Assembly (NCBI GenBank): GCA_017404325.1
Contig: JAFRCO010000012.1
Location: 1-64,000 of the forward strand
Source: Candidatus Saccharimonadota bacterium
GTDB lineage: Bacteria > Patescibacteriota > Saccharimonadia > Saccharimonadales > Saccharimonadaceae
Length of the DNA: 64,000 nt
Direction of reading: 5' to 3'
The position numbers were made by a program, and so were the translations under genes. This document shows positions 47,484 through 55,697 of the stretch, one piece after another. Positions within the stretch are counted from its first letter, which is position 1. Each line of letters begins with the position of its first letter. The notes below the pieces were generated by a model. That model was given only the letters and a program-made list of their open reading frames with translations. It made no database searches and was not told the origin of the DNA.

Positions 47484-49583
47484 ATGGCTACTGAAATTAA
47501 AGATTTGGCGAAATTGCGCAACATTGGAATTATTGCTCACATTGACGCCGGCAAAACTACGACTTCGGAAGCGATTTTGTATCGTACCGGTCTTAAACAT
47601 AAAATTGACCTAGTAAAGGGTGGTACTGGCGGTGCTGAAACCGACTGGATGGAACAGGAAAAGGAACGTGGTATCACGATTACTTCGGCTGCAGTTACGG
47701 TTTACTGGAAAAATCATCAAATCAACATTATTGATACCCCAGGGCACATCGACTTCACGGCGGAAGTTGAGCGTTCACTTCGCGTTCTCGACGGCGCGGT
47801 AGTAGTCTTCGACGGCAAAATGGGTGTCGAAGCTCAATCTGAAACCGTCTGGCGTCAAGCAACTAAATATGGTATTCCACGCATCTGTTTTGTCAACAAA
47901 ATTAACCAAATTGGTGGTGATTTTTATAAATCGCTTGATTCAATCCATAAGCGTTTGTCTAAGAACGCAGTAGCGATTCACCTCCCAATTGGATTTGAAA
48001 AAGATATCTGCGGCGTCGTCGATCTTATCGATATGAAGGCTTACACCTATAAAGATTATGCAGACCACGAATTAACGGTTGGTGAAATTCCGGCAGATAT
48101 GCTCGAAAAAGCGAAGAATGCTCGCTCAATGCTTGTTGAGGAAGCAGTTCAAGCTGATGAATCTTTGATGGAGAAATACTTTAACCAAGGCGAGGATGCG
48201 ATTTCAGAGGTCGAACTTAAGGCGGCACTCCGAAAACGCGTGCTTGAAGGTGATTTCTTCTTAGTCACTGGTGGTGATGGACGTGGTGTAATCGTCGAGA
48301 AGGTCCTCGATCTTATGACTGACTACCTTCCGTCTCCGCTTGATCGTGACCAAGGCCAAACCGTCGGTACCGATCCGAAGACTGGCGACCAAATCGTGAG
48401 AAAAGCTGATAATTCTGAGCCTCTTACCGCACTCGCATTCAAGATTGCAACTGACCCGTTTGTAGGTAAACTAATCTTTATCCGGGTTTATGCTGGCGTA
48501 CTTAAATCTGGCGATACAGTCTTAAATGCTTCGACTGGCGACAAGGAAAGAATTGGTCGTCTCGTACGAATGTATGCAAACGAGCGAAATGATATTACCG
48601 AGATTAAGGCGGGCGATATCGCAGCAATCGTCGGAATGAAGAATTGTACAACTGGTACAACGATTTGTAATCCGGCGCACCCAATTCTTCTTGAGTCGAT
48701 CGACTTCCCGGATCCTCCAGTATCAATCGCGGTCGAACCGAAAACTAAGGCTGATCAAGAGAAAATGGGTCTTGGACTTTCGAAACTCGCTGAAGAAGAC
48801 CCGACTTTCCGCGTTCATACCGATGAAGAAACTGGACAAACGATTATTTCAGGTATGGGTGAGCTACACCTCGAAATTATTATTGACCGTTTAAAGAGGG
48901 AACATGGCGTTGAGGCGAATACTGGCGCGCCACAAGTTGCTTACCGTGAAACCATTCGTGGCGTAGCAGAAGCCCAAGGTAAACACATCAAGCAGTCTGG
49001 TGGTCGTGGTCAATATGGTGACGTTTGGATTAAGTTTGAGCCAAACGAACCAGGCAAAGGCTTCGAGTTTATCGATCAAATTAAAGGTGGTGTCGTTCCT
49101 CAGGAATATCGTAAACCAGTTCAGAAAGGTGTCGAAGACACGTTGGCTGGTGGTGTTATCGCTGGATACCCAGTAGTTGATGTTAAGGCTACACTTTATG
49201 ATGGTTCTTACCACGATGTCGACTCGTCCGAACTCGCCTTCACCTTAGCAGGTGCACTCGCTACTCGCGAAGGTATTAAGAAAGCGAATCCGGTCTTACT
49301 AGAACCTGTAATGAAGATGGAAATTACTACTCCAGAAGAGTTCATGGGTGACGTAATTGGTGATATTAACTCTCGCCGAGGCCGCATCGATGAAATGGAA
49401 GATTTGAATGGTGGCGCGAAATTAATTAAGGCCTTCTGCCCGCTCGCTAATCTCTTCGGTTATACTGGCGATCTTCGCGGTATGACTCAGGGTCGTGCAG
49501 CTTCTTCGATGGAGCTCTTCGCTTATGAGGAAGTTCCGCCGAACGTTGCTCAAGAGATTATTGAGAAGAGAAATTCGAAATAA
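47484..49583 (+). CDS. fusA: Elongation factor G
   Basis: 699 residues, full length; catalyses translocation and, with RRF, recycling. G1 AHIDAGKTT near residue 18, switch [11 protein letters not shown]4 NKIN (in FVNKIN), and domains II-V down to [24 protein letters not shown] 5 nt upstream fixes the start. It is monocistronic here, not downstream of rpsG, with its own promoter and terminator. Confidence 0.98.
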
Positions 49584-49635: not shown

Positions 49636-52272
49636 TTAGTGGAAGATTCTTCTTCTTGCCGATGCGCGCATCCAAAGATAACTGACGATGACAACAGTAG
49701 TAGATGCAACTATGAGAATAATCGGACTATTTTGTTTAGTGCCTTCGTTTGAGTCGGTGAAAGAACCGGTATCTGGAACTGGAGGAGCAACATCGACAGA
49801 TTCGTCCGCATTTTCAAAACTTTCGTGTTTTAAGAGTAGTTCTTCGTTTCGGTAGAGACTTTCGAAGATTACTAACCTAGTTCCACCAAGTCCAGTAGTA
49901 TTAAAAGTATAGTACATCTCAACTTCACCACATGCTTCTTCTGGAGTAATCGTAATCTCTTGTTGAACTGGTTCGTCGTCAATCAATAATTCTTTACCAG
50001 TCTCTTTGTTCATAACGACGCCTTTAATGACGTATTCGACTCCTGGTTTGAGACAGTACTTTACGGTGTCTTTGATTTTAACCTTTTCGTCAAGCGGAAG
50101 AATCTTTTCTCCCGTATCGTCGTTAGTGGCGTAAGTGTAAAGTTTAACTACTTCGACAGTCTGCGCTTCGTCGTTTATATCGTTATGTGAAACGACAATG
50201 TCATCTCTGTAATACATCGATTCGAATACGACTAGTTCGGCGCCGCCAAGTTTAGTTGCATCTATAGTGAAGACCATTTCCGTTTCGCCACATTCTTCTT
50301 CTGGAGTGATTTCGATTGACTGTTCGACCGGCTCGCCATTTTCTAGGTAAACTTCGCCAGTTTTCTTATCCATCAATATACCCTTAATAGTGAAACTCAT
50401 GTTCGGCTTAGCACAATAAGAAATTTTATCCTTAATTTTAGCTTCTTTGGTCGCTTCAACGTATTTATCATCATCTTCGGCATCAACCGCATTGGTTTCA
50501 AGACTGAATTTAGTACATGTATTATTCCAGTTGGCTAAATCGACTACTTGATTATTAGTATTGATTGTAATAGTAGCTTTTTGGTCCTTAATACCAGTAC
50601 AGAATAAGTTGGCACCGCATTTTAGCTCTTGGATAACGTAAGTACCGTATGGTAAAGCACCTAAATCGTCTTTAACTGGTAAGCTTTGGCCGTTATGATC
50701 TAGCCCAAACCATGTACCGTAGCCTAAGAAGGAAACTGGATCCGGTAAATCGTAAAGTTCATCATACCCGTTAGTATGGAAAGAGTGGAGCGCGAAACTT
50801 GAGGAAGTGTTGACTACACCATTTTGATTGCTAACCACGATATGCGTTTCGCCAAGTTGGTTGTTTTCATCTACTTCAGAAATACTGAATAAAACATCAC
50901 TCATTGGCGCATTATTGGCTTCGTCCATCTTAACAAACTTAACGTCGCCACGAATTATTTGGTTTTCTGCTGTAATGGTGACATGTAGGTTAGCATCGCC
51001 ATCATCCGGAATAGTAATGTTCCATGGAGTTGTATTAAGTACATAACCTTCAGCGGCAGCGGTTTCTTTGACAATATATTTACCGTATGGAAGATTAGAG
51101 AATTGAACGCTACAACTACCGTTGGCAAGGGTTTTAGTATCTACTACTGCACCTTTAGCTTTTGAAGAGCCATTGTAGTAAATCGCGCCATCAGAATCGT
51201 TGATGAGTTGGAAAGTTGTGCCGTTGAAAGACAAACCATTATATGGCGTACAGGTTTGAGAATCTGCGTCAACTTTATTGATTGTAATATCTCCATATAC
51301 AGGCGTGTTGTAGAATTTTAAGGATTTGGTATCACCACTACCATTTAAGGTAGTAGTCTGTTCTCCGGCAGTGAGTTCGTAGCTAGTGTTAGTAGAGGTT
51401 TCTACTACTTTATATGAAATATTGTTGGCGAGTAAGTTTGTAAAGCTGACTGCGCCATTAGCATTTGTAGTGCCAGTCGCGACTAAGGCCCCGTTTGCGT
51501 AAAACTGGTCTGTTTTCGGGTTATAAATCTTGCTGCCGGAATTGTTGTATACCTTAAAGACGATTCCGGAGAAATTTGCTTCACCTTGGGCCGAACAAGT
51601 ATTGGTTACTCCGTCACATTTTTGAACATTAATTCCACCATATTGATAATTATTCTCGATCCAAACTACATCTTGAACCCCACTACCATAACCTTTACCT
51701 ACGTATAATTGATAATTTTTAGCAATAGTCCAAGCATCACTGTTATTGTTGATATTGGTTCGAAGAGCTGAAATTGCGTTATTAATATTTGTCACCGCGG
51801 AAGAAGAAAGACTGTTATAGTCGTTATAGTAGATTGCACCAATAATAGCATGTGTCCACTGGAACAATTCGCCGGACGGGAAAGCTGAAAAGACTGCATT
51901 TCTGACGCTGGAAGTGTGTGAGTTGTTATTTTGATAAAGGAAGATGACAAACTTGATTAAATTGTTATTTTCAGTACTGCTTAATTTAGTGGCGGTTGTA
52001 GTACCGACTGGAGAACTAAGTGATGGCTGTGCACAAAAAGCTTCAAAGGTTTGACCATTCACTGCAACCTTATATTGACCGGTGGAATTGTCGCCATCAT
52101 ATGGAAGTTGCCCATCATTTGAGATAGTAATTGTAGCGCCATCGGCAGTAATTGCATTGGCTTGAATAATAGTATGATGAATAAAATGAAAGCTAGTTAA
52201 AAGAACCGCAATCAATCCGATGCTGGACAGTACGGACCTAATAATAAAGCTTTTCCGCGACAACTTAAACAT
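49636..52272 (-). CDS. Thioester/SpaA-like/VaFE adhesin with VPDTG sorting signal
   Basis: 878 residues from MFKLSRKS (AAGGAA upstream; the frame runs back to 52341 across the promoter). Order: signal peptide (~1-40); a thioester-type domain with Cys80 in TFEAFCAQPS and Gln200 in VQDVVW, the place of the TQxA(I/V)W motif; about three CnaB/SpaA-like domains (GITxNKxD starts, PYGKYIVKETAA, YVIQEL); two VaFE-type repeats, each ending VVFES or VIFES; VPDTG near residue 832, a hydrophobic helix and RRRIFH tail. In known families Cys-Gln thioesters bind host surfaces covalently and CnaB/VaFE domains self-crosslink by isopeptide bonds. Predicted covalent adhesin on the wall. Confidence 0.85.
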   Translation of the reverse strand: MFKLSRKSFIIRSVLSSIGLIAVLLTSFHFIHHTIIQANAITADGATITISNDGQLPYDGDNSTGQYKVAVNGQTFEAFCAQPSLSSPVGTTTATKLSSTENNNLIKFVIFLYQNNNSHTSSVRNAVFSAFPSGELFQWTHAIIGAIYYNDYNSLSSSAVTNINNAISALRTNINNNSDAWTIAKNYQLYVGKGYGSGVQDVVWIENNYQYGGINVQKCDGVTNTCSAQGEANFSGIVFKVYNNSGSKIYNPKTDQFYANGALVATGTTNANGAVSFTNLLANNISYKVVETSTNTSYELTAGEQTTTLNGSGDTKSLKFYNTPVYGDITINKVDADSQTCTPYNGLSFNGTTFQLINDSDGAIYYNGSSKAKGAVVDTKTLANGSCSVQFSNLPYGKYIVKETAAAEGYVLNTTPWNITIPDDGDANLHVTITAENQIIRGDVKFVKMDEANNAPMSDVLFSISEVDENNQLGETHIVVSNQNGVVNTSSSFALHSFHTNGYDELYDLPDPVSFLGYGTWFGLDHNGQSLPVKDDLGALPYGTYVIQELKCGANLFCTGIKDQKATITINTNNQVVDLANWNNTCTKFSLETNAVDAEDDDKYVEATKEAKIKDKISYCAKPNMSFTIKGILMDKKTGEVYLENGEPVEQSIEITPEEECGETEMVFTIDATKLGGAELVVFESMYYRDDIVVSHNDINDEAQTVEVVKLYTYATNDDTGEKILPLDEKVKIKDTVKYCLKPGVEYVIKGVVMNKETGKELLIDDEPVQQEITITPEEACGEVEMYYTFNTTGLGGTRLVIFESLYRNEELLLKHESFENADESVDVAPPVPDTGSFTDSNEGTKQNSPIILIVASTTVVIVSYLWMRASARRRIFH

Positions 52273-52312: not shown

Positions 52313-52341
52313 ATTATTTCACAAGAAAGTTTAATTGTCAA
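52313..52341 (-). promoter_or_regulatory. Promoter of the thioester adhesin
   Basis: Minus strand TTGACA (52336-52341), 17-nt spacer, AATAAT (52313-52318). It starts about 15 nt after the upstream gene's terminator. Confidence 0.7.
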
Positions 52342-52384: not shown

Positions 52385-52930
52385 TTAGGAAATTAGGAGA
52401 ATGTCTTTTAAACCATTCTCTATCATATTCCTAACCTCCGGAATGCTCCGGTTGGTGAAAATGGAACCTACGGGCAGAATTATGCCGTAAAATTCCGAAT
52501 TACCGAACCTGAAAGTCGTGGCACCTTTAGGTCCAGCATAGCCCTTCATCGGGCAGTCAGCATAGAACAGGAGACTGTCCGATTGCCGCTCATATGGCTT
52601 AGGTTCTGCGATGAAGTGGAATGAGCCATCACCATCGTAATAATAATTACCCGGAATTATTCCGTAAGCACGCTTGCGCCAATTCGGAACAACTCTCCGA
52701 GCAACCTCCTCGCTGAACCATTCGCCATACTGTGCCCAATTTGCCAGGAACAGTTTGTCGTCGGCCTTTTTCAGCATGCGGCGTGGTATTGTTACGATGA
52801 TCTTCGTATAACGGTCTCTCCGGCCAAATGCGCTCAGTTCAGAGTACACCGTCATGTCTCGAAGGTCATTTCTTCCGGCTGGGATAGAGACATGCCCTAC
52901 GTCGGAAATTGCAAATGTGGTCGTTTTCAT
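52385..52930 (-). CDS. Unknown cytoplasmic protein
   Basis: 181 residues; no signal peptide, membrane helix or recognised motif. Arg-, Tyr- and Phe-rich, with a GRRDRYTKIIVTIPRR strand and GNYYYDGDGSFHF. Higher G+C and codons such as CGG, CTG and AAC set it apart from its neighbours. It has a perfect-consensus promoter and its own terminator, and stands alone between tuf and the adhesin. Possibly a horizontally gained cassette; no function proposed. Confidence 0.72.
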   Translation of the reverse strand: MKTTTFAISDVGHVSIPAGRNDLRDMTVYSELSAFGRRDRYTKIIVTIPRRMLKKADDKLFLANWAQYGEWFSEEVARRVVPNWRKRAYGIIPGNYYYDGDGSFHFIAEPKPYERQSDSLLFYADCPMKGYAGPKGATTFRFGNSEFYGIILPVGSIFTNRSIPEVRNMIENGLKDILLIS

Positions 52931-53119: not shown

Positions 53120-54304
53120 ATGGCAAATTTTGACCGTTCCAAGCCACATATTAATGTCGGCACCATGGGTCACGTCGACCATGGTAAAACCACTTTAACC
53201 GCTGCGATCACGAGCGTCCTCGCAAAGAGGTTGCCATCGGATGTGAACAAGCCGGTTGCTTATGATCAAATTGATAACGCGCCTGAGGAAAAGGCTCGTG
53301 GTATTACTATCGCGACTTCTCACCAGGAGTATGAATCTGAAAAACGCCACTATGCACACGTTGATATGCCGGGGCACGCAGATTACATTAAGAATATGAT
53401 TACCGGTGCTGCACAGGTTGATGGTGCTATCCTCGTCGTTGCGGCGAACGATGGCCCGCTTCCACAAACTCGTGAGCACGTACTTCTTGCTCACCAGGTG
53501 AACGTACCGAAGATTATCGTCTTCTTAAACAAGATGGATCTTGCTGATCCTGAACTCGTTGAGCTCGTCGAGATGGATGTCCGTGAACTTCTTAACAAGT
53601 ACGGCTTCGATGGCGACAATGCTCCTATCATCAAGGGTTCTGCTACTAAGGCGCTCGAAGGTGATAAGGAAAACGAAGATGCGATCATGGAACTCGTCCA
53701 TGCGATGGATGAATACTTTGATATTCCTGAACACGATCTAGACAAACCATTCTTGATGCCAATCGAGGATGTCTTCTCGATTAAAGGTCGTGGTACTGTC
53801 GCGACTGGTCGTATCGAACAAGGTGTCGTTAAATTGAACGATGAAGTTGAAATTGTCGGTCTTCGCGACACCCAAAAGTCGGTTGTAACCGGTATTGAAG
53901 CTTTCCACAAGACTCTCGACCAAGGTCAAGCTGGCGATAACGCTGGTTTACTCCTTCGTGGTATCGAGCGCGATCAAATTGAGCGTGGTCAAGTTATCGC
54001 AAAGCCAGGTTCAATCACTCCGCACACTGAATTTGAGGCACAAGTTTACATCCTTAAGAAAGAGGAAGGTGGACGTCACACTCCGTTCTCAAAGGGTTAC
54101 AAGCCGCAATTCTACTTCCGTACTACAGATGTTACTGGTGAAGTTGAACTTCCAGCTGACAAGGAAATCGTTATGCCTGGTGACCAAGTAACCTTTAAGG
54201 TTAAATTATTGGCCCCTGTCGCTATGAACGATAACGACCGCTTCGCTATTCGCGAAGGCGGCAAGACCGTTGGCTCCGGTGTCATCACCAAGGTTATCAA
54301 GTAA
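53120..54304 (+). CDS. tuf: Elongation factor Tu
   Basis: 394 residues. Carries aminoacyl-tRNA to the ribosome. G1 GHVDHGKTT, switch I RGITI, G3 DMPGHADY, G4 NKMD, domain 2 [13 protein letters not shown] and the C-terminal ending [18 protein letters not shown] fixes the ATG at 53120; the ATG 4 nt earlier is out of frame. Monocistronic, with its own promoter and terminator. Codon use is the most biased (CGT, CTC, GGT), as expected for high expression. Confidence 0.98.
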
Positions 54305-54353: not shown

Positions 54354-55697
54354 TTAATCGAAGTTAACTTTTCGTTTCGTAATACGAGGGAGATATCGGA
54401 TAAAGAGAGCTAGAGCTAGAATTCCAAGAACGGAAGCAGTAACTTGGGCAGCATTTATTTCCATAGTCGACGCACCAGTGTTCGGAACAGCCGGCGTTTC
54501 TTTATCATCATCGAAGACTGCCGTAAACTTAATGTCTCTATCTACTATAACTGTTTTAATTTGCTCATCAGTAATAGGATCACCTGCTTTTATTTCGGTC
54601 CCATCTTCTAAAACTACGTCTACATCGGCAACCCAGTGGGAAAATTTGAAGCTTTTGTTCGCTTTATATGAGGAGCCGCTAGCATTTTCGCCTGGTTTTA
54701 ATGTCTCATCTGTAATGCCAGTGATTTTGCCGTTTTCATCCGTGTTGTATTCTATTTTATAAAATTTAGCATAATACTCTATACTACTACCAGCGTTAGA
54801 CGTGAAACCAAAGACAAAGTGAACACCATCAGTCTGAGTATTGGATGTAATTTTTGTATAAATATTGGCTAAATCTGCGCTGTCTACCGTAGTTTTTTCT
54901 TCTTTATTAAACTCAGAATAGATATAGTTTCCGTTTGCAACATACATATTTCTCAAACCATCCGTGTTCGGCTGCAAGTCTTCAGCAGACTTAGCAAACA
55001 TGTTGGTTCGGCTAAAGGCGTTGCCAGTATTTAGGATTTTGTAAGATTGCGAAGCATCTATATCCGTAATGCCAAAATACATATCATCATTATAGTAGCG
55101 TTCAGGAGTTTCGCCATCTTTATAAAGAAGTGCTCTCATTTCAACAAATACTCTAGTTTCATCAGCAAGCCTCAGAGCTTTAATGCTATCATCGGTGTTT
55201 TCACAAGTTTCGTCTGGATAGATTTGTCGGCCAACATAGAAATAGTGCGAATCGGGTCTTACAGCAACCGCTATTGGTTCTCCATTTACGGTAGGCTGGA
55301 CTTCTCCGATAAATTCTGCACTCGTATCCAGTATTTCTACATCTATACGGTAATCGCCATTAGTCATGCTGAAGCCTGGAGCCGGGCCTATCGATTGCAA
55401 AACTGCACCGTAATTGGTTGTATAGTAATAGACCGGGAAGCATCCGTTTGAATTTTTATAATATCCCTCTTGCCAATATGATGCCGGAGTGACTGTAGTA
55501 GAGACGTTTACCCCATGGAATAACGGAGTAAGTGAATTGATAAGATCCGGATCGATATTAACGTTACTCGCACCAAGCGCTTCTCCCCCTGTATATTCGA
55601 TATTATATTGATTGGCTGCAAAAGCATTGGTGCCGCCTAGCTCAACGCCAATCAGGGCTACAACGAAAGCCGCTGACATAAATCTTTTTCTTTTCAT
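54354..55697 (-). CDS. VPxTG-anchored surface protein with InlB-like repeat
   Basis: 447 residues: signal peptide ending AFA (residue ~27), a ~290-residue region without a recognised family, one InlB/Listeria-Bacteroides-type repeat (~315-390; YKANKSFKFSHWVADVD...IKFTAVF), then VPNTGA near residue 404, a hydrophobic helix and a basic tail RITKRKVNFD. This is the sortase-substrate layout with a VPxTG motif. AAGGATAAC precedes the ATG. The promoter is embedded in the upstream gene's terminator hairpin. Confidence 0.82.
   Translation of the reverse strand: MKRKRFMSAAFVVALIGVELGGTNAFAANQYNIEYTGGEALGASNVNIDPDLINSLTPLFHGVNVSTTVTPASYWQEGYYKNSNGCFPVYYYTTNYGAVLQSIGPAPGFSMTNGDYRIDVEILDTSAEFIGEVQPTVNGEPIAVAVRPDSHYFYVGRQIYPDETCENTDDSIKALRLADETRVFVEMRALLYKDGETPERYYNDDMYFGITDIDASQSYKILNTGNAFSRTNMFAKSAEDLQPNTDGLRNMYVANGNYIYSEFNKEEKTTVDSADLANIYTKITSNTQTDGVHFVFGFTSNAGSSIEYYAKFYKIEYNTDENGKITGITDETLKPGENASGSSYKANKSFKFSHWVADVDVVLEDGTEIKAGDPITDEQIKTVIVDRDIKFTAVFDDDKETPAVPNTGASTMEINAAQVTASVLGILALALFIRYLPRITKRKVNFD

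Follow-up and report, generated by a model that had tools for sequence, protein, structure and literature searches.

A predicted TIE-type surface protein with an apparently exchangeable thioester tip in a Candidatus Saccharimonadota bacterium

Background

Thioester-isopeptide-ester (TIE) proteins, which include BaTIE of Bacillus anthracis and SaTIE of Staphylococcus aureus, carry an N-terminal thioester domain (TED) on a stalk of CnaB and ester domains and end in a sortase anchor. The internal bond of one such protein, CpTIE of Clostridium perfringens, has been solved as a thioester between Cys138 and Gln267 (PMC4450167). The TED of SfbI targets a single lysine of fibrinogen, which becomes joined to the TED glutamine (PMC4450167). 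In characterised TEDs the motif TQxA(I/V)W is part of the central helix, and the bond requires neither the Gln nor the Trp of this motif. The bond-forming Gln belongs to a separate and weaker strand motif, hydrophobic-Q-polar-hydrophobic-hydrophobic (PMC4450167, PMC6194298).

TEDs can also act between bacteria. TIEpLS20 (p34), encoded by the conjugative plasmid pLS20 of Bacillus subtilis, likewise presents a TED on a CnaB stalk (PMC8092201). Efficient conjugation requires this adhesin, which is inactivated by the change Cys68Ser (PMC8092201).

Ultrasmall epibionts are tethered by type IV pili and are assumed to have additional adhesins that act at close range (PMC12206443). In culture, Saccharibacteria grow on Actinomycetales, and here too pili tether the cells and further close-range adhesins have been proposed (PMC12206443). 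The available text of a Tn-seq study in Southlakia names several adhesins, with no thioester protein among them (PMC10633639), and the available parts of the published pilus and Tn-seq studies together name T4P and other adhesins, not a TED protein. A literature search found no paper that links thioester domains with Saccharibacteria or Patescibacteria. Here we describe a TIE-type gene in a stretch of 64,000 nucleotides from a Candidatus Saccharimonadota bacterium (contig JAFRCO010000012.1), which we refer to as the window.

Results and discussion

Gene and domain architecture

The TIE-type gene (49636..52272, minus strand) is a single open reading frame that runs from an ATG at 52272 to 49636 and encodes an 878-aa surface protein, as assigned from its sequence and from Pfam and NCBIfam profiles. 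A near-consensus sigma-70-like promoter, TTGACA-17-AATAAT, lies upstream of the ATG on the same strand (52313..52341). It was recognised by consensus match, agrees at 11 of 12 positions and has a TG preceding the second hexamer. A hairpin at 52380-52356 is the terminator of the upstream gene.

The protein comprises a hydrophobic N-terminus, a TED, three CnaB/SpaA modules, two T-Q ester (VaFE) domains, a VPDTG motif, a membrane span and a tail, all encoded on the minus strand. By hydropathy, the N-terminal signal region covers residues 7-36 (52165..52254), with its hydrophobic core starting at residue 7, and the TED follows directly (residues 40-212; 51637..52155). Pfam TED_2 (PF20610) matches the protein with an E-value of 3.7e-7 and a score of 30.6 bits against a cut-off of 27. 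The stalk modules match SpaA (PF17802, 8.5e-30, four stretches), TQ (PF18202, 1.2e-38, two matches above the cut-off) and NCBIfam VaFE_rpt (1.2e-56), so the isopeptide and ester domains are both identified by profile, and the CnaB-like modules and two VaFE-like repeats that the initial annotation had read from the letters are borne out.

The same annotation had proposed a VPDTG anchor. This LPXTG-like sorting signal (residues 832-836; 49765..49779) is indeed followed by a hydrophobic stretch, predicted by hydropathy to span the membrane (residues 849-867; 49672..49728), and by a basic tail; the relatives have xP[DNE]TG in the same place. The genome (766 kb in 17 contigs) contains three sortase genes, one of which is about 17 kb from the TIE-type gene on the same contig. 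No further TED_2 or TQ matches were found in this 766-kb genome beyond this gene, and Pfam TED (PF08341) has no match in it, the matching model being its sister TED_2. Judged from its sequence, the 878-aa protein is a complete TIE protein. Its module order is that of BaTIE and SaTIE, and the ester domains are a feature that it shares with SaTIE (PMC6194298).

Fold and class of the thioester domain

The TED was modelled with AlphaFold2 from a 30-row alignment (pLDDT 93.1, pTM 0.88). The model runs from four strands through a helical middle to a hairpin; one strand ends at Cys80, His141 is part of a helix, and Gln200 is located just before the last long strand. A Foldseek comparison of the model with the PDB gave 16 matches with E < 1e-3, and all 16 are TEDs. 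VIA-align placed 13 TED entries at Z 9.6-12.5, and the next unrelated entry had Z 3.1. In the best fold match, residues 101-276 of CpTIE align with residues 9-172 of the model. The aligned range begins 37 positions before the thioester Cys of CpTIE and ends 9 positions after its thioester Gln, and the corresponding distances for Cys80 and Gln200 are 34 and 9.

Searching PDB sequences with the alignment of TEDs returned nothing up to E 10, so that membership in the TEDs rests on the fold and on one modest Pfam score. The thioester domain claimed in the initial annotation thereby gains the support of profiles and fold comparison, and also of the conservation described below. There were no viral fold matches below E 1e-3 and no relatives in viral contigs, and thus there is no sign of a phage origin.

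The best fold matches are class I TEDs, namely CpTIE (5a0g/5a0d; Z 12.5), Cpa (11.1) and SfbI (10.2). Compared with these, the TED of the window is only 11-16% identical, has THxxhG rather than TQxxhW, and shows in its model neither the N-terminal helical indel of class I (15-20 residues) nor a helix between the first strands. The Cys-Gln spacing is 119-149 in the 30 aligned TEDs, 129 in CpTIE and 152 in SfbI. The domain is not of class II, because the model has no beta-sandwich insert and the spacing is short in comparison with about 195 in BaTIE. Relative to BaTIE and SaTIE, it lacks the class II insert, is too distant for a sequence match to PDB chains, and is borne by a small-genome lineage. 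It may represent a smaller subgroup of its own.

Thioester residues and their conservation

Counted from the ATG, Cys80 (52033..52035, minus strand) lies in AFCAQP at the end of a beta strand and is the predicted thioester cysteine, as the initial annotation had claimed. The predicted thioester glutamine, Gln200 (51673..51675, minus strand), lies in VQDVVW. Most TED relatives are 22-43% identical to the TED of the window. In an unfiltered realignment of all HMM matches, in which some rows are near-duplicates, the residues are kept in the covered relatives as follows: Cys in 60 of 60, His in 60 of 60, Gln in 59 of 59 and Trp in 58 of 59. This count repeats, without a filter, one made on 30 relatives that had been chosen with a motif filter.

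In the filtered set of 30 (median pairwise identity 29%), the TED region has only five invariant columns: C80, H141, Q200, W204 and E206. The chance that five random columns of 175 would include both predicted bond residues is about 7e-4 for this motif-filtered set. Each of the 30 aligned TEDs contains exactly one cysteine, which rules out an intradomain disulphide for Cys80. FCAQ conforms to the motif [YFL]C-hydrophobic-polar and VQDVV to hQphh (motifs from PMC4450167).

The initial annotation had also equated Gln200 with the Gln of TQxA(I/V)W, a comparison that does not hold. Gln200 is still the correct residue, for a different reason: VQDVV fits the hydrophobic-Q-polar-hydrophobic-hydrophobic motif of the bond-forming strand. 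His141 (51850..51852, minus strand; helix 96-112 of the model), within WTHAIIGAIYY, seems to occupy the position that the TQ motif has in the central helix. The invariant His occurs where other TEDs have TQxxPhiW, as if TQxxhW had become THxxhG, an equivalence based on helix position and spacing, not on superposition. When its profile was compared with that of a classical TED from another genus (G010), which has TQLAIW, the match covered only 40 columns around the Cys with a probability of 2%, so the helix motif is not alignable by sequence.

Stalk

The stalk begins with CnaB/SpaA module 1 (residues 213-322; 51307..51636; this and all following stalk domains are on the minus strand), which is delimited by PF17802 and the stalk model and contains a candidate isopeptide Lys218-Asn322 with Glu291. 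Module 2 (residues 327-437; 50962..51294) includes the best PF17802 stretch, at 327-428, and a candidate Lys333-Asn437 with Glu403. The CnaB-like module 3 (residues 440-586; 50515..50955), delimited by profile and stalk model, has a low-confidence insert and candidate residues Lys448/Glu549/Asn583-584. All these Lys/Glu/Asn sets are candidates that were assigned by reading residue positions. The model of residues 207-830, built from a seven-row alignment, is almost entirely beta (pLDDT 85). Its best PDB matches are BaTIE (E 4.6e-17) and a streptococcal ancillary pilin, and it matches the ester repeats of Cpe0147 with E 1.8e-10.

The residue set of T-Q ester domains, with Thr as nucleophile, His as base, an Asp, and Gln as electrophile, is complete in domain 1 (residues 590-708; 50149..50505; PF18202 91.1 bits), as Thr593/His696/Asp701/Gln704. 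This is the Thr/His/Asp/Gln set of the Cpe0147 ester-bond domains, and the His-Asp-Gln spacing is equal (PMC12679949). Domain 2 (residues ~710-824; 49801..50145; 61.8 bits) differs from Cpe0147 in that its set, Thr713/His816/Asn821/Glu824, is partial, with Asn and Glu replacing Asp and Gln. Because a Gln-to-Glu change in Cpe0147 leaves 35% of cross-linking (PMC12679949), by analogy the membrane-proximal domain with its Glu824 may be only partly cross-linked. Domain 2 is a natural Thr-Glu version of the ester domain, and the same replacement of Gln by Glu is found again in the last ester domain of relatives.

The stalk also contains cysteines, at residues 219/226, 341/387, 552/558/586, 620/661 and 740/781. 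Those of module 3 and both ester domains (552, 558, 586, 620, 661, 740 and 781) are invariant in seven stalks. Disulphides may thus exist alongside the ester bonds.

Locus and distribution

The gene is located between fusA, which encodes EF-G (47484..49583, plus strand), and tuf, which encodes EF-Tu (53120..54304, plus strand). These flanks of the insertion site are 92-99% and 91-100% identical in relatives, respectively, and together 91-100% across genomes with TED loci. Of 23 loci (the window and 22 others), 17 have the TED gene in the fusA-tuf interval and opposite in direction to both neighbours; in two more a single flank was identified, and the remaining four are elsewhere. In members of the genus without a TED match, the fusA-tuf interval ranges from 167 bp to 8 kb and contains other genes, sometimes encoding other PDTG-type proteins. 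Within a cluster of translation genes, the interval is a site of variable cargo.

Several observations concern the content of this site and its surroundings. Intervals from genomes without a TED match (L110-L149) contain helicase-like, methyltransferase-like and other surface protein genes. Between the adhesin gene and tuf in the window is a 181-aa gene (52385-52930, minus strand) that has no family match in Pfam or NCBIfam and a perfect 12/12 promoter at 53003-52975. Just past tuf (54354-55697, minus strand) is a gene for a second sortase-type protein, of 447 aa with VPNTG; it has no family above the cut-off in Pfam or NCBIfam, and relatives that are 39-43% identical occur in the same neighbourhood in four other genomes. 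Two genomes, G305 (L109, 3354-10905) and G062 (L014, 5708-11489), have TED proteins in tandem pairs at the insertion site. Rfam detects nothing in the locus.

With a profile built from seven relatives, the TED is recognisable in 53 of the 174 genomes that represent the genus and is therefore not an attachment factor that all members share. In the samples searched with the same profile, the TED family is limited to one of 61 genera of the family and one of 281 of the phylum. A more divergent, classical TED (PF08341) is present in the other genus (G010). Among the contigs of named genomes there was one Lachnospiraceae match only, and it is to the stalk.

Exchange of the tip

The ester domains are better conserved than the TED in 23 of 24 comparisons, with medians of 47% and 36%, respectively. 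In one pair of species (G181 and G318), the leaders are 95% and the stalks 94% identical, and the TEDs only 37%. Divergence between the two starts right after the signal region and stops at VWIE, which follows the thioester Gln. Their DNA is 96.9% identical over the upstream 322 bp and 92.8% identical from the stalk onward, with no match in between. Similarly, the tandem proteins of G305 have C-terminal stalks that are 96% identical and TEDs that are 24% identical.

These sharp edges suggest recombination rather than gradual drift, and the sequences point to a TED tip that is swapped as a cassette while leader and stalk are kept. The exchange, across which the Cys and Gln are retained, would fit a changing attachment target.

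Proposed mechanism and target

In the mechanism that we propose, the N-terminal TED would form an internal Cys80-Gln200 thioester after secretion. The stalk of three CnaB modules (isopeptide type) and two VaFE domains (ester type) would hold the TED away from the cell, with VPDTG joined to the envelope by a sortase. When the cell meets its partner, a nucleophile in a protein on the partner's surface, probably the side chain of a Lys, would attack the thioester, and the resulting amide bond to Gln200 would fix the cell to its partner. This partner is most likely the host bacterium of the small-genome organism, probably a parasite or symbiont, which we infer from genome size and gene content to be an epibiont. 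Where relatives swap the tip as a cassette and retain leader and stalk, the target would change.

The steps of this proposal differ in strength. The Cys80-Gln200 thioester very probably forms. Perhaps this TED fold instead exists without a thioester, its Cys and Gln being kept for packing or for metal binding with His141, which is as invariant as they are. This is very improbable, given that a single unpaired cysteine of a surface domain is kept in 60 of 60 relatives together with a Gln in the bond-forming motif. Moreover, the structure of CpTIE is essentially unchanged by Cys138Ala (PMC4450167), so the Cys is not needed for folding. If the bond forms, covalent adhesion is its likely use.

Given covalent adhesion, a host bacterium is the target that we moderately favour. 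The chemistry might instead be aimed at an animal or environmental macromolecule, such as a mucosal, salivary or matrix protein, and thereby hold the cell in its habitat, not on a host bacterium. The characterised TED receptor, that of SfbI and FbaB, is fibrinogen (PMC4450167), and the presence of the TED in only part of the genus, along with tip exchange, would also fit different animal niches. We regard such a target as unlikely, because replication of cultured Saccharibacteria seems to require attachment to bacteria (PMC12206443). The thioester might also act between like cells or in DNA transfer, that is, in aggregation or mating contact, as TIEpLS20 does in mating-pair formation (PMC8092201). 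In contrast to TIEpLS20, which is plasmid-borne and has a class II TED, the gene of the window resides among translation genes, between fusA and tuf, and no conjugation genes were seen adjoining it, which makes this use quite improbable.

We estimate a probability of roughly 0.6 for the reading as a whole, in which the protein is a sortase-anchored TIE adhesin with a covalent, swappable tip that is probably aimed at the host bacterium. More tentatively, and at somewhat less than even odds, the fixed fusA-tuf site and its recombined tips might constitute a system of exchangeable warheads, by which each lineage becomes irreversibly bound to a different host surface protein. The tips would then be a TED subgroup at the level of the genus, with a His where the central helix usually has the TQ motif.

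Conclusions

The new element is tip exchange in a TIE protein, a known kind of protein in an unexpected lineage. If the proposed mechanism is true, this thioester adhesin is a concrete candidate for the irreversible step of attachment of an epibiont to its host. Testing this candidate would be simple, since a thioester marks the target to which it binds, so that the covalent adduct can be pulled out and sequenced. The exchanged tips would provide natural variants for asking what sets host range.
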